Under the pieces are notes generated by a model. That model was not told the origin of the DNA. It saw nothing but the letters and a program-made list of their open reading frames with translations, and did not search any database. Of a stretch of DNA of 64,000 bases, positions 1,066 through 46,942 are shown piece by piece. Position 1 is the first letter of the stretch, and each line of letters begins with the position of its first letter. This DNA is from an uncultured Flavobacteriales bacterium. GTDB lineage: Bacteria > Bacteroidota > Bacteroidia > Flavobacteriales > Flavobacteriaceae. The position numbers and the translations under genes are program-made. Where the stretch lies: the NCBI GenBank assembly GCA_913058295.1, contig CAJXRD010000001.1:1-64000 (forward strand). Reading direction: 5' to 3'.

Positions 1066-2597
1066 TTATTCTTTTACAAATTTTTTAATTAATGTCCCTT
1101 GATCTGTTTTTATAGAAACAAAAAATAATCCAGCCTTTAAATTGGAAACATCTAGTAGGTTGGTTGGGTGGTTTAGGCTGAACACCCTCCTCCCGATCAC
1201 AACGTATATTTTTAAACTATTAATGTGATAACCGCTACTGTTTTCTAAGTGTAATACATTTTGTGCGGGATTGGGATATAGCATAATTTGTGTTGCTAAA
1301 ATATCTTCTATCCCCAAACTACAATCTTCACTAAATATAGTCCAATCACTCACATGCCAATCTGGATAATCGTCTTGTACAGGAGCATCTACATCAATAC
1401 AAAATAATTCTTCACTCCCCCAACATATTAAATGGTCAAGATTAGCATTATTTCCGTTTTTTAGATTTAATGAAGTTAGGTTGTCGTTATATAAAAGCCC
1501 AACATATTCTAATTGAGGATTATTACTCAAATCTAATGTTGTAATTTGACCTTCCAAAATTTCCACCCTTTTCAATAAAAAATTATCAGACAAGTCCACC
1601 TCTGTTATAAAGTCAAGCCCAAAATATAAATGTCTTAAATTTATATTATTAGAGGTATTTATAGAGGTTAAAAAATTTCCCGGACAGTAAAACCATTCTA
1701 AAGCGATATTATTTGAAATGTCAATATTTTCTATATTATTTTCATTAATCCACAACCGTTTTAAATTAACATTTTGAGAAACATCAATAGTGTTAATATT
1801 ATTTCTAGAAACATTTAAAGTTTCTAAATTAACATTTTGAGAAATATCAATAGTGTTAATATTGTTTTCAGAAATCTCCAATTGTTCTAAATTTACATTT
1901 TGAGAAACATCTAACTCTGTTATTGGATTATTATAACACCATAATTGTTCTAATTTTAGATTTTGAGAAACATCTAAGTTACTTATCGCATTACTTTGGC
2001 AACGCAATATTTTTAATTCTTTAAATGCGTTTATTCCCTCCAAACTAAGTATGTAATCAAATACATAATTAAAATCAACGATTGCCATGTTTTCTATTCT
2101 ATTGGTAAACACTAAGTCGTTATATGCAATATCATCTCCAAAACCTAAATCTTCTAAATAATCTTCAAATATGTTGTCTGGTATAAAAGTAGTTGCTGAA
2201 TTATCGTAAGGATAATCAAAAGTAATGGTTCTTGTTTCTTCCAAGATGTCTAAGGCGCAAGGCATTACGGCGTCACTATCGCTATAGAGTTCTATGTTTA
2301 ATGTATAGGAGTTATATCCATTTGGCAGATTAATAATATGAGTTTGAGAGTCCCAAGTTTCTGATTGACCAGAAGAGTATAAATAACATAGGGAAACGCT
2401 AATGGTATTGTCTAAATAACTTATAGTGGAGCCGCCAAAAGTTGCTGCAAAGTTGCTGCAAAGTTGCTATAAAATAATGTTTCTAATGTTACCTCATTGT
2501 CTCCACTAGGCTCTATATAAAAATTCATAAGATCCTCGGTTTGGCTATAGCTATAGCTTGAAATAAATAATAAGAATAGTATTGTGATTTTTTTCAT
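1066..2597 (-). pseudogene. Leucine-rich-repeat surface protein with T9SS sorting domain, frameshifted by an 11-bp tandem repeat
   Basis: Translation from the ATG at 2597 gives a typical signal peptide (MKKITILFLLFISSYSYSQ) and reads to a stop at 2421-2423. The remainder is in another frame, open from about 2466 to 1066, with a first ATG at 2265. The break lies in a tandem repeat of an 11-mer; removing one unit joins both halves into one frame of about 506 codons (SNFAATFGGSTISYLDNT across the join). The downstream part has about nine 21-residue leucine-rich repeats of the form DVSQNxxLxxLxxxxNxI, then a C-terminal domain starting at LYPNPAQN and ending in KKFVKE, typical of T9SS cargo exported to the cell surface. 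Function of the repeats is unknown, probably binding or adhesion. If the break is real, the product now lacks a secretion signal; a slipped copy number would restore it. Confidence 0.8.
2438..2468. repeat. 11-bp tandem repeat, 2.8 copies, at the frameshift
   Basis: Unit AAAGTTGCTGC at 2438-2448 and 2449-2459, then nine bases of a third copy at 2460-2468. Because 11 is not a multiple of three, each gain or loss of a unit changes the reading frame of the surrounding leucine-rich-repeat gene. With one unit fewer the gene is intact. Confidence 0.9.
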
Positions 2598-2758: not shown

Positions 2759-3625
2759 CTATCCAGCCAAGGCTTCAGCTCCACCAACAATCTCTAAGAT
2801 CTCGTTAGTAATAGAAGCTTGTCTTGCTTTGTTATATTGTAAGTTAAGCTCATCTCTAAGCTCTGTTGCATTATCGGTTGCTTTATGCATCGCTGTCATA
2901 CGTGCACCGTGCTCACTTGCAGAAGAATCTCTAAGTGCCTTATACAATTGCATTTTTAAACTCTTAGGGATTAACTCTTCCACTATTTTAGCTTTGGAAG
3001 GCTCAAAAATATAATCTGAAGCAGTCGTTGATGCCTCAGAATCACTAACAGATTCTAAAGGTAAAAATGGCTCTGTCATTATAATTTGAGTCGCAGCATT
3101 TTTAAATTTATTATATACCAAAACGATTTTATCGTAAGTTCCTTCCGTAAATAAATCCATCAAATTTTGAGCGATAATCGCATTATTCTCAAAAGTTAGG
3201 TCATCAAAAATTTCAATATTATTTTCAATAACTGTATGGTCCTTTATAAGAATATCGTTTGCTTTTTTACCTAAAGTAATAAAATCTACTTGTTTCCCTT
3301 TATAAGACTCTTCAATTAAAGTGTTACAAGCTTTTACAATATTAGAATTAAAAGCTCCAGCTAATCCACGATTAGAAGAAATAGCAACCAACAATACTTT
3401 GTTTACTTCTCGTTGTGTAGTATAATCACTACCAATATCACCATCCAAACTTGCGCTTAGATTTTGAAGTAATTCAGTTTGTTTATCAGCATAAGGACGT
3501 AAAGTAGTAATTGCATCTTGCGCTTTTTTCAACTTCGCTGCAGACACCATTTTCATGGCACTGGTAATTTGCATCGTTGAAGATACAGACGCTATTCTAG
3601 TACGTATTTCTTTTAAATTTGCCAT
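2759..3625 (-). CDS. atpG: F-type ATP synthase subunit gamma
   Basis: A 288-residue protein starting MANLKEIRTRI, the classic N-terminal helix of the gamma subunit, with the ITSAMKMVSAAKL segment (about residues 20-32) and the conserved C-terminal stretch around ASEHGARMTAMHKATDNA and ending in the ITNEILEIVGGAEAL motif. Gamma is the rotating central stalk that couples proton flow through the a/c ring to catalysis in alpha/beta. It is the last gene of the operon and is followed by a strong terminator. Unusually, it is separated from atpA by an unrelated cassette of about 400 bp, so its translation is not closely coupled to atpA. Confidence 0.98.
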   Translation of the reverse strand: MANLKEIRTRIASVSSTMQITSAMKMVSAAKLKKAQDAITTLRPYADKQTELLQNLSASLDGDIGSDYTTQREVNKVLLVAISSNRGLAGAFNSNIVKACNTLIEESYKGKQVDFITLGKKANDILIKDHTVIENNIEIFDDLTFENNAIIAQNLMDLFTEGTYDKIVLVYNKFKNAATQIIMTEPFLPLESVSDSEASTTASDYIFEPSKAKIVEELIPKSLKMQLYKALRDSSASEHGARMTAMHKATDNATELRDELNLQYNKARQASITNEILEIVGGAEALAG

Positions 3626-3631
3626 TTTTCA

Positions 3632-3661
3632 AGTTATGAGTTATGAATGCAGAGTTATGAG
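3632..3661. repeat. Left flank of the four-helix-bundle cassette
   Basis: AGTTATGAGTTATGA followed by ATGCAGAGTTATGAG. It resembles the reverse complement of the sequence at 4003-4033 on the other side of the four-helix-bundle gene (shared blocks AGTTAnGAGTTAT and nTGCAGAGT). The stop codon of the cassette gene lies inside it. Confidence 0.65.
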
Positions 3662-3990
3662 TTTTTGATAATTGCTACTAATATTCTTATTAACTCCTCG
3701 CACTTATTTGTCAATTCTTCAGGTACTTTTCTTCCAGTTGCTTTTAATAATTCTAACCAATATTTAGTTTCATCAGCTTCCTTTAGTGCAATACCAAATT
3801 TATTTTTAAAATCCTTTTTGCTTACTCCTCTTTGTGCTTCTCTAGTATTAGCCCCAATACTAGTACCGCTTTTTAAAAGTTGTGAAGCTAATTCATAGTC
3901 CTTATTAGCTTTAAGTTGATCACAGTATAAAACTATTTCACGTGCAAATTGAAAACTCTTTACTCTTATTGGACTGTTTTCAAAAGCCAT
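3655..3990 (-). CDS. Four-helix-bundle protein (S23 / 23S rRNA intervening-sequence protein family)
   Basis: A 111-residue protein from the ATG at 3990; a GTG start at 4011 would add seven residues but lies inside the flanking repeat. Sequence features of the S23-type four-helix-bundle family are clear: an N-terminal VKSFQFAREIVLYC helix, the LASQLLKSGTSIGANTREAQ block, the KNKFGIALKEADETKYWLELL block and a C-terminal ELTNKCEELIRILVAIIKNS helix. Relatives are encoded in intervening sequences of 23S rRNA genes and in diversity-generating retroelements (Avd); their biochemical role is uncertain, probably nucleic-acid binding. The gene sits between atpA and atpG with inverted-repeat flanks, so it looks inserted rather than a part of ATP synthase. 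Confidence 0.85.
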   Translation of the reverse strand: MAFENSPIRVKSFQFAREIVLYCDQLKANKDYELASQLLKSGTSIGANTREAQRGVSKKDFKNKFGIALKEADETKYWLELLKATGRKVPEELTNKCEELIRILVAIIKNS

Positions 3991-4002
3991 AGTTTTTATT
4001 TT

Positions 4003-4033
4003 ACTCTGCACTCAACACTAATAACTCTTAACT
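4003..4033. repeat. Right flank of the four-helix-bundle cassette
   Basis: ACTCTGCACTCAACACTAAT then AACTCTTAACT; the inverted partner of 3632-3661. It ends one base from the atpA stop codon, so the cassette fills almost the whole atpA-atpG gap. Confidence 0.65.
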
Positions 4034-4034
4034 A

Positions 4035-5612
4035 TTAGTTATACTTTGCTGAAAGATCTTTAGCTACATTAGTTAAAACTTCAATCACCTCATCGGTTAA
4101 TTTTCCAGCTTTTAATGTATTTAAAGTATCTCTATGTTTTGCGTTAAGGAATTCGATAAAATCTCTTTCAAATTCTTTAATTTTATTTACAGGAACTGCT
4201 TTTAATAAGTTCTTAGATCCTGCATAAATAATTGCAATTTGATCTTCTACTGTAAATGGATCGTTTTGTGCTTGTTTAAGGATTTCAACGTTACGCTTAC
4301 CTTTCTCAATTACATTAAGTGTCGCTGCATCTAAATCTGATCCAAATTTAGCAAAAGCTTCTAATTCACGGAATTGAGCTTGATCTAATTTTAAGGTTCC
4401 AGAAACTTTCTTCATCGATTTAACCTGTGCATTTCCACCCACACGTGATACCGAAATACCTACGTTAATTGCTGGACGAACCCCAGAGTTAAATAAATCC
4501 CCATCTAAAAATATTTGACCATCTGTAATAGAAATTACATTGGTTGGAATATATGCAGATACATCTCCCGCTTGCGTTTCAATAATTGGTAATGCAGTTA
4601 ATGATCCACCTCCTTTTACTTTATCCTTTAAGGATTCAGGAAGGTCATTCATTGTTTTAGCGATTTCGTCGTTATTAATGATTTTTGCCGAACGCTCTAA
4701 TAATCTAGAGTGAAGGTAAAATACATCTCCAGGATATGCTTCACGTCCCGGTGGGCGACGTAATAATAAAGATACCTCACGGTATGCTACTGCTTGCTTA
4801 GATAAATCATCATAAATAATTAAAGCAGGACGACCTGTATCTCTAAAATACTCCCCAATTGCAGCACCTGCAAATGGAGCGTAAACTTGCATTGGGGCAG
4901 GATCTGATGCATTTGCAGCTACTATTGTAGTATACGCCAATGCTCCTTTTTCTTCCAATACTTTAGCAATATTCGCTACTGTAGAAGCTTTTTGCCCTAT
5001 AGCAACATAGATACAAAATACTGGTTCCCCAGCATCGTAAAATTCTTTTTGATTTAATATGGTGTCAATACAAACGGTAGTTTTTCCTGTTTGACGGTCA
5101 CCAATTACCAACTCACGTTGTCCTCTACCCACTGGAATCATAGCATCAATTGCTTTAATTCCTGTTTGTAATGGTTCTGTTACTGGTTCACGAAAAATTA
5201 CACCAGGTGCAATTCGTTCAAGTGGCATTTCAACAGTTTCTCCTGTAATTACTCCTTTACCATCAATAGGTTCTCCTAATGTATTTACAACACGACCAAC
5301 AATATCTTCTCCTACATTAATAGAAGCAATTCGTTGGGTACGTTTTACAGTAGATCCTTCTACTATATTACTAGAATGACCTAATAATACAACCCCTACA
5401 TTGTCTTCTTCTAAGTTTAGAACAATACCTTCTAAACCATTTTCGAATTCAACTAATTCACCGTACTGTACATTAGAAAGCCCGTATACACGTGCAATAC
5501 CATCACCTACAGTTAGAACACTTCCTACTTCATCTAATGAAGCAGTGGATTCAAAACCAGATAATTGTTGTTTTAATATTGCTGATACTTCAGCTGGATT
5601 AACTTCTGCCAT
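4035..5612 (-). CDS. atpA: F-type ATP synthase subunit alpha
   Basis: A 525-residue protein with the alpha-subunit features: N-terminal [19 protein letters not shown] crown region, Walker [10 protein letters not shown] (about residues 172-180), Walker [11 protein letters not shown], and the SRLLERSAK and [15 protein letters not shown] motifs. Alpha forms the hexamer with beta; its nucleotide site is non-catalytic. The length is normal for Bacteroidetes. It lies between atpH and the inserted four-helix-bundle cassette. No atpD or atpC follows, as expected for Bacteroidetes, where beta and epsilon are often encoded elsewhere. Confidence 0.98.
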
Positions 5613-45340: not shown

Positions 45341-46942
45341 TTAACCTTTAGAAACTTTTAATTTCATTCCGGGTTTTAAATGGTTACTGCTAATATCGTT
45401 CCAATTTTTTATTTTTTGAACAGTAACTCCAGGAAATTTTTGAGAGATACTCCAAAGGGAGTCTCCATTTTTAACAGTATAAATTTTTACGTTGTTCTTG
45501 GTAGTTGTTTTCGCTACTGAAGTCTCATTCTTGGCGGCAAATGGTTTACGAGGATAAATGGTAAGTCGTTGCCCAACTTTTAAATTGTTACTCTTAAGGC
45601 CATTCCACTTTTTTATCTGACTAACACCAACGCCATAACGTTCGGCAATTTTACCTAAATAATCCCCACTTCGTACTCGATATCGAATCCTATCTGGTTG
45701 TTCTATATAGGTGGGTAATGGTTTTTCTAATTTCTTTATTTCTTCTTCAACATGTACATAAATAGCTTCTTCATTAGCTACAAATATTCCTATTTTATCT
45801 ACCGGAAGTCTTAGGGAATAATTTTTATCCTTAATATATGGGATAATTCCAACCTTATAGGAAGGGTTTAAAAACTGTACTTCTTCTATAGGAAGGTTCA
45901 CTACTTCTGCTACCTGCTTTAAAGTTATTAACCTTTTTACCTGTATAGTATCTGTTGCAATTTGATGGTGTCTAGGGCCTGTACTTTTAAATCCATGTTC
46001 TTCGGCGTACTCAAAAATATACATGGTAGCTAAAAACGCAGGGACGTAGCCAGCGGTTTCTCTAGGTAGTTTTTTTCTAATCTTCCAATAATTAGTTTCT
46101 CCTCCAGATCTTCTAATTGCTTTCGAAACATTCCCTGGTCCAGAATTATAGGCTGCTAAAGCTAAATCCCAATCGTTAAAGCTACCATATAGGCTTTTTA
46201 AATATTTACTTGCAGCTTCGGTAGCCATTTCTGGGTCCGCACGTTCATCTACATATGAATTTACCTCTAAGCCATACATTTTTCCAGTGGCAAACATAAA
46301 TTGCCAAAGTCCTTTTGCACCAACTCGAGATTGTGCTACAGGGTCTAAAGCAGATTCTACTACGGCCAAGTATTTAATCTCCAGCGGAAGGTTGTGCTTA
46401 TCTAATTCCTGTTCAAACATTGGAAAATAATAATCGCTCAATGCTATTAAACTTCCCATCGTTCTACGACGATTTTTTAAGTAATGCTTAATTACGCTTT
46501 CTAAAGAGGCGTTGTATTCTACATTAAATGGAGTTCGGGCATTGAGCTCTTCTAATCTTTGTTTTAAAACTTCTGTGGAAAGTTCTTTGTATTCTACTGG
46601 TTCATATTCCTGATTTACAATACTGCCATAAACTTCTTCAAACCTTTCGTTATTATAAAGTTCTTTAATCCATAAACTATCCGCTTCTCTTGCTATCTGA
46701 TTATCCTGTAAATCAAAAATCAAAGTGTCTCTAGTGTTCGTGTGAATAGAATTGCTTGTAAAATCTCCTGAAGTTTCTTTTACAACAATTGTATCTACAA
46801 GTTGTATAGTTTTTTTCTGAAGCTCTAGTTGAACAATTGGTAAAGAATCATTTTTTATGGTTTCTTCTTGTGCAAATACAGTTCCATTTCCATAAAAAAA
46901 TAGAATCAAAAAAAGAGCAGAGTATATTTGTTTTAGATTCAT
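45341..46942 (-). CDS. Lytic transglycosylase with two LysM domains (MltD-like)
   Basis: A 533-residue protein: signal peptide ending VFAQ (about 25), a linker, then an SLT/lysozyme-like domain (about 165-300) with the catalytic Glu in AVVESALDP, SRVGAKGLWQFMFATGKMYG and ALAAYNSGPGNVSKAI, and two C-terminal LysM repeats (about 430-475 and 488-532, with YRVRSGDYLGKIAERYG and YTVKNGDSLWSISQKF). It cleaves peptidoglycan glycan strands in the periplasm and binds the wall through LysM. Confidence 0.95.
   Translation of the reverse strand: MNLKQIYSALFLILFFYGNGTVFAQEETIKNDSLPIVQLELQKKTIQLVDTIVVKETSGDFTSNSIHTNTRDTLIFDLQDNQIAREADSLWIKELYNNERFEEVYGSIVNQEYEPVEYKELSTEVLKQRLEELNARTPFNVEYNASLESVIKHYLKNRRRTMGSLIALSDYYFPMFEQELDKHNLPLEIKYLAVVESALDPVAQSRVGAKGLWQFMFATGKMYGLEVNSYVDERADPEMATEAASKYLKSLYGSFNDWDLALAAYNSGPGNVSKAIRRSGGETNYWKIRKKLPRETAGYVPAFLATMYIFEYAEEHGFKSTGPRHHQIATDTIQVKRLITLKQVAEVVNLPIEEVQFLNPSYKVGIIPYIKDKNYSLRLPVDKIGIFVANEEAIYVHVEEEIKKLEKPLPTYIEQPDRIRYRVRSGDYLGKIAERYGVGVSQIKKWNGLKSNNLKVGQRLTIYPRKPFAAKNETSVAKTTTKNNVKIYTVKNGDSLWSISQKFPGVTVQKIKNWNDISSNHLKPGMKLKVSKG

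Follow-up and report, generated by a model that had tools for sequence, protein, structure and literature searches.

The window, by which we mean the whole stretch of 64,000 nucleotides that was analysed, carries between its atpA and atpG genes a compact block with a single small gene, laid out in the following features.

2759-3625, minus strand: atpG, host gene, open over its full length, with its ATG at 3623-3625
3620-4040, minus strand: predicted mRNA hairpin (RNA folding) with a 22-bp terminal stem and the S23 ORF in the loop
3632-4033: S23 cassette block, 402 bp, filling nearly all of the atpA-atpG gap
3632-3662: flank array on the downstream side of the S23 gene, made of imperfect AGTTATG-type 7-mers
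3655-3990, minus strand: S23 gene, 111 aa from an ATG start, encoding a four-helix-bundle protein of the 23S rRNA-intervening-sequence type
4003-4033: upstream flank array of degenerate 7-mers, in inverted orientation to 3632-3662
4035-5612, minus strand: atpA, host gene, open over its full length, with its stop codon at 4035-4037

The first-pass annotation had described just this arrangement, an S23-type gene in a block of about 400 bp between intact host genes, six bases from the atpG start and one from the atpA stop, with flanks related to each other in inverted orientation. Its coordinates agree with ours, both host genes are open over their entire length, the encoded protein matches PF05635 (77.9 bits; cut-off 33.8) and TIGR02436 (98.1 bits; cut-off 24), and we find the observation correct and understated. 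In the 29 loci compared below, atpA is 82-100% identical to its matches. The element encodes S23 and nothing else; the program-made ORF listing places the S23 ORF at 3655-4011 with a GTG start, and the stop codon (3655-3657) falls within the downstream repeat. Positions 3632-3662 and 4003-4033 form a 31-nt imperfect inverted repeat that is 74% complementary over its length and 83% over the inner 24 nt. The flank score is 14.0, shuffles averaging 7.8 (sd 1.4; one of 100 as good), so that the inverted flanks of the atp copy alone are only modestly beyond chance. The predicted hairpin lies on the co-directional transcript between atpA and atpG, and its 22-bp stem is found in both the minimum-energy and the centroid structure, the total folding energy of the block being ordinary (z -1.65; 6 of 100 shuffles equally good). 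Taken by themselves, the arrays in the window are short and degenerate, and it is through the S23 flanks as a class that they are recognised as intergenic tandem 7-mers; the inverted-flank architecture, too, is settled by class-wide statistics and not by the single atp copy. Elsewhere in the window, a leucine-rich-repeat-like ORF with tandem DNA repeats (1066-2265, minus strand) is adjoined at about 2440-2470 by a short TTGCTGCAAAG tandem, possibly a frameshift.

The nearest solved structures, both of five chains, are 2rld (E 3.6e-22) and 2gsc (profile E 5e-32). A profile search against PDB chains recovered these two at E<=1 and did not recover Avd. A solved S23 relative from Xanthomonas is described as a homopentamer (PMC4990558). 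S23 is under purifying selection: dN/dS is 0.03-0.13 in 13 of 14 pairs, the remaining pair having saturated dS and several others dS >1, and the low ratios therefore indicate that the protein is being kept.

The class was defined by 117 S23 loci, a part of the matches listed, from 59 genomes including the window's own (hereafter G000), 37 of which have a match; one locus below the cut-off (L009) was excluded and one at a contig end (L005) was removed after the autocorrelation analysis. Comparison of the 90 bp upstream with the reverse complement of the 90 bp downstream, each against 100 dinucleotide shuffles, gives inverted flanks at p<=0.01 for 72/117 S23 loci, compared to 8/394 ordinary genes from about 451 kb of the own genome (1/56 among those of at most 450 bp); 45 of the 117 miss this threshold. 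At the 99th percentile of mismatched pairs stand 63 of the 117. Five of the eight own-genome loci pass, the failures being L001 (0.02), L004 (0.30) and the contig-end locus L005. The flanks are periodic, with autocorrelation of 0.44 at lag 7, 0.40 at lag 14, 0.37-0.39 at lag 21 and 0.34 at lag 28 against about 0.31 when shuffled, and such peaks are absent at these lags from coding and distant controls. Among 80 loci from named genomes, 53 have a flank z of about 3 or more and 27 fall below 3 (simple shuffles). Four loci (L253, L265, L166, L177) have their arrays in direct rather than inverted order. Base composition is skewed as well, G to C being about 2 to 1 in upstream flanks and C to G 1.5 to 1 in downstream flanks.

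Cassettes of the class are mostly read in the direction of the genes around them. Taking as neighbours the longest open segments of at least 80 residues within 1 kb on both sides (unannotated), S23 is co-directional with both neighbours at 179 of 207 loci, opposed to both at 8 and mixed at 20, as compared with 223/394 co-directional among ordinary own-genome genes. By source, the proportion is 109/119 for the own genome and its relatives, 62/74 for named genomes and 8/14 for plasmids.

The assembly of G000 (3.07 Mb in 95 contigs, 97.6% complete) contains nine PF05635 matches, eight of them above the cut-off. Judged from unannotated neighbour translations, their sites include groES-groEL, prfA-pyrF, fadA-fadE, two paa genes, a position before tilS and others, and the low-complexity flank word differs from cassette to cassette. 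The first-pass annotation had looked to other S23-type genes and to further copies of the flank motif in the genome as support for mobility. The former exist, at several other loci. For the latter the outcome is divided: the exact motif at 3632-3646 does have a second place, in contig C13 of the own genome, where the mraY-murD gap (46602-46623, L011) holds a tandem GAGTTATG/GAGTGAA array in the atp cassette's word, and no S23 gene accompanies it. A single flank sequence common to all cassettes is rejected, AGTTATGAGTTATGA (with at most one mismatch) being found only at the atp block and in C13. Seven of the nine matches were compared, with 45% identity in their best pair, and across genomes only 2 of 279 within-genome S23 pairs reach at least 70% identity. 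Because close within-genome pairs are so few, S23 cassettes are no freely multiplying transposon; the pattern of copies suggests either that one cassette per clade came in from elsewhere or that old insertions have been kept at favoured sites.

Some own-genome contigs call for separate mention. The first 45 positions of contig C21 (L005), beside an S23 gene and presumably adapter-like in sequence, likely mark an assembly break. On C39 (L002), the neighbour downstream of S23, which we take to be a SohB-type protease, is on the opposite strand, with a GC content of 45% there and 35% to the left; the array may mark a chimeric join in this contig. On C2, outside the window (84798-85100, plus strand), lies a one-gene cassette unrelated to S23, with inverted GTCATCCTGAACTTGATTCAG-type repeats on both sides of what we assume to be a small GIY-YIG-like nuclease gene.

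From these observations, the atp block is understood as an S23 cassette, that is, a one-gene mobile element of the IVS type that spreads mainly between genomes, a reading to which we assign a probability of about 0.6. Such a cassette would consist of a short tandem array of 7- or 8-mers, the S23 gene and the same array inverted, and it would settle between operon genes in their reading direction, where read-through from the host operon could express it. Pairing of the two arrays in the mRNA may loop out the ORF and so let operons tolerate the cassette. The S23 protein, we infer, would recognise the array of its own cassette, in RNA or DNA form, and assist in copying the element, for the most part into new genomes and less within the same one. 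The first-pass suggestion of a small mobile unit is well supported for the class, through flank words that recur across loci and phyla, near-empty sites and co-directional insertion; such a unit may, as that annotation supposed, insert without stopping transcription. The support does not carry over to the atp copy itself, whose nearest S23 elsewhere is 50% identical. For that copy, an old insertion followed by many losses would fit the sequences just as well as mobility.

A serious but rather improbable alternative holds that the cassette is a resident regulatory module, captured long ago, inherited vertically and engaged in processing or balancing operon mRNA, with frequent loss leaving hairpins behind. 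The strong purifying selection on S23 and the few within-genome copies are in keeping with it, as is the reuse of sites across genera (atpA-atpG, fadA-fadE and a putative CoA-transferase A/B pair, a label that we assume from the neighbour proteins), where S23-less hairpins also occur. Comparison of the sites among relatives bears on it in both directions. For atpA-atpG, 57 genomes have an AtpG match, and 30 loci were taken from them; one lacks atpA, leaving 29 gaps. S23 is present in six, those of the own genome, G017, G012 and G025, of G024 with a stop, and of G028 in degenerate form. It is absent from the other 23, whereas its presence here with the same flanks in every relative would have refuted the first-pass idea of mobility. 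The S23-less gaps measure 12-138 bp, several with a short 7-mer hairpin of a different word. In our sample, the atp subfamily is seen solely at atpA-atpG, in genomes of four genera, and since S23 outside this site is at most 50% identical to the atp copy (214 loci), the atp copy may be old.

At fadA-fadE and prfA-pyrF, the distribution speaks against a resident module, both sites being filled in G000 and free of a cassette in its nearest relative, G017, and in many others. The fadA-fadE search (27 loci) finds S23 in G000, G012 and G008, and a gap of only 0-16 bp in 12 loci (G014 with 2 bp, its FadE being 95% identical). G017 has a different 117-bp hairpin there, and G003, G005 and G039 have other sequence of more than 500 bp, that of G003 and G005 (L283, L280) being a 512-bp gap with sequence unlike the S23 cassette. 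From outside that search, G025 and G031 carry a related cassette at fadA-fadE, and G052 has an S23 gene there that is 15% identical to that of G000; occupation of the site by an unrelated S23 clade also speaks against a resident module. Among 30 prfA-pyrF loci, 24 have a readable gap (six pyrF loci have no readable prfA gap); S23 is found in G000 only, and 13 gaps span 0-9 bp. At groES-groEL, S23 occurs in G000, G017, G011 and G012 among the loci seen. When filled and empty gaps at fadA-fadE and prfA-pyrF are set side by side by eye, no target-site duplication is recognised, the gaps being highly diverged. Two neighbouring gaps of the fad operon in G012 (contig C85; L108, L110) hold S23 genes that are 88% identical and have the same word. 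Contig C4 of G025 (L043, L106) also has two S23 cassettes in adjacent fad-operon gaps, which are 39% identical. Between G000 and G008, S23 has a dN of 0.035 and fadE one of 0.164 (dS 1.2 and 2.07, respectively), which is only suggestive of a transfer at fadA-fadE.

Seven hand-chosen S23-less gaps were compared with 214 flank pairs by match scores taken without a shuffled baseline. The five best matches of the fadA-fadE hairpin in G037 are all fad-operon cassettes, and that in G041 matches best the S23 cassette of G041 itself. The mraY-murD array of G000, which forms no hairpin, has as its first matches the atp cassettes of G017 and G000. Three S23-less atp hairpins match best a locus from another genus (L118), with the genome's own L107 joint second in the case of G008; for the prfA-pyrF hairpin of G036, no same-genome match appears in the top five.

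The association of flank words with protein clades across loci and phyla is the second body of evidence against a resident module, and it favours the mobile cassette. We compared 214 loci (116, 80 and 14, together with four atp copies), using pairs without a detectable common neighbour and scoring the upstream flank of one locus against the reverse complement of the other's downstream flank. This inverted similarity between different loci rises with protein identity, from 7.0 at low identity to 9.03 at 60-70% and 10.31 above 70%. For the 767 pairs at a protein identity of at least 0.6, it is 9.13 as compared to 7.20 under permutation (sd 0.11), a value reached in 0 of 999 permutations. Across phyla, it climbs from 6.36 to 12.08 with protein identity while shuffled flanks remain at 6.41-6.91, at most 400 pairs per bin being scored and three of the 80 named loci being dropped for unclear phylum; phylum labels here are our own, drawn from record titles, and many contigs are metagenome bins that are possibly stray or mistitled. 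The word core AGGCA is present in 46 of the 77 named loci, a set retrieved with the protein of one clade, and in 5 of 120 others. The clade with AGGCACAA-like words is spread over contigs titled as Desulfobacterota relatives, Nitrospirae, Kiritimatiellae, Verrucomicrobia, Planctomycetota and Chitinophagaceae, with differing neighbours.

Cassettes are also found on plasmids, among them in CRISPR and conjugation gene clusters, which likewise counts against a resident module. In the plasmid collection, 43 records matched S23, more than half of them from Nostoc, Calothrix and other cyanobacterial genera, which we take to be heterocystous. Of 14 loci opened, nine have strong inverted arrays (z >5), two direct arrays and one a weak array, the remaining two showing little array or one side only; among the cyanobacterial loci, strong inverted arrays number 7/11. 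Flank words include CAGGGAA, TAGGGAG and AGGGTGT. The sites are cas6-cas4, cas10 and a cmr3-family gene, an iron-sulphur assembly gene and sufB, and a TraM-domain gene and a hypothetical gene; on one plasmid, S23 lies between two ribonucleotide reductase genes on the opposite strand. Phage carriage was considered and set aside, one query protein giving 0 matches in 50,697 phage records. In three cyanobacterial plasmid loci (L252, L253, L260), S23 stands between cas genes, from which false associations of PF05635 with CRISPR may result. A figure legend in an article on CRISPR mining names PF05635 as one of the domains, and such links could arise where cassettes have inserted into cas gene clusters.

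How a cassette without a transposase might move leads to possible partner enzymes, one candidate being that S23 assists a trans-acting reverse transcriptase in copying the looped mRNA segment into DNA. The resemblance of PF05635 to Avd, the accessory protein of diversity-generating retroelements that is of the same fold family (PMC10053308), invites this idea, and co-directional insertion in transcripts would suit an RNA intermediate. We nevertheless regard it as unlikely. The own genome, at 97.6% completeness, has no match to PF00078 (reverse transcriptase), which sets it apart from the Avd systems with which S23 has its fold in common, and 15 of the 21 genomes with at least three S23 matches likewise have none. 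Over the 59 genomes, the counts of S23 and reverse transcriptase show no significant correlation (rho 0.18, p 0.18; Fisher p 0.06).

Still more doubtful is that the 7-mers arise from replication slippage in intergenic DNA and that S23 stands among them by chance. Slippage has been held responsible for heptamer over-representation in bacteria (PMC4692102), and AT-rich gaps do yield many weak period-7 scores: in a short-window scan, which discriminates weakly, the own-genome S23 gaps rank 1, 3, 8, 83 and 135 of 252, the last two well among ordinary gaps. Against this stand the rarity of inverted flanks at ordinary genes (8/394), the words that follow protein clade across phyla, and the scans of 451 kb of the own genome, in which strict settings return two intergenic and no coding arrays and looser settings place three of four intergenic 7-mer arrays at S23 genes, the flanks of the S23 gene on C2 escaping the scan. 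That a Y1 (IS200/RAYT) transposase mobilises the cassettes in trans by acting on the hairpin ends is the least credible of all, given that its one support, a correlation of S23 and Y1 counts over the 59 genomes (rho 0.64), is equalled by that with genome size (rho 0.71, the strongest correlate of S23 number), that the own genome has no match to PF01797 (Y1 being the sole transposase family sought), and that 5 of the 21 S23-rich genomes have neither reverse transcriptase nor Y1. Either enzyme as a required resident partner is thus rejected, there being no match to it in the own genome.

The mobile S23 cassette has importance in joining two old puzzles that the articles searched discuss separately, an S23 gene of rRNA intervening sequences for which a function is not known and heptamer arrays that lack a known mechanism of spread, and in offering a concrete pairing amenable to test, in which each S23 clade has its own word. 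It may also account for the presence of PF05635 proteins in unrelated operons, among them CRISPR gene clusters. We tentatively extend the reading, at odds that we place somewhat below even, to a very widespread and so far unrecognised group of transposase-less mobile elements in bacterial operons, in which a pentameric S23 would read a clade-specific array of 7- or 8-mers, carry the cassette between genomes and leave behind the STRR (presumably the cyanobacterial class of heptamer repeats), GGGAATC and TAACTGA repeats, the rRNA intervening sequence being a special case. If S23 is indeed the mobility factor, this would be a new kind of DNA movement, brought about by a helical protein of 110 residues with no recognised nuclease. 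Among open-licence articles in PubMed Central, judged from titles and the beginnings of abstracts, we found nothing that joins S23 genes, heptamer flanks and operon insertion.

Comparison with known systems places the cassette between several of them. MITE and REP-RAYT families comprise short inverted-repeat elements, some geneless, that occur beside gene-bearing ones with similar ends. The likeness is that geneless hairpins resembling S23 flanks exist beside S23-bearing cassettes; the difference is that the cassette gene is not a known transposase and that the genome is without Y1 (PF01797). The heptamer repeats GGGGA(C/T)T of Nostoc and GGGAATC of Xanthomonas (PMC4692102) and TAACTGA of Beggiatoaceae (PMC4679880) are, like the S23 flanks, intergenic tandem 7-mer arrays, and in Xanthomonas Xcc 70 cases are described of 7-mer arrays paired in convergent order (PMC4692102). 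Their spread across phyla is called patchy, with the remark that "no mechanism is evident", and MacGregor suggests that a repeat-binding protein might itself be the mobile element (PMC4692102, PMC4679880); in a term search, the main texts of both articles do not contain "23S", "four helix" or "S23".

The nearest known system is the S23-coding intervening sequence (IVS) of 23S rRNA, which has in common with the atp block an S23/PF05635 ORF and complementary termini predicted to form a stem. In the account of Coxiella burnetii, the IVS of 428 nt has one S23 ORF between stem-forming complementary termini, tandem heptamers (GACAGAT) immediately before the S23 start, excision by RNase III and an inferred horizontal acquisition (PMC4990558). 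Its S23 ORF is there described as subject to reductive evolution and probably not made (PMC4990558), a decay that contrasts with the purifying selection on S23 in the present cassettes. The intervening sequences, moreover, are located in 23S rRNA, from which RNase III excises them, whereas the present cassettes lie between protein genes, the atp block between atpA and atpG.
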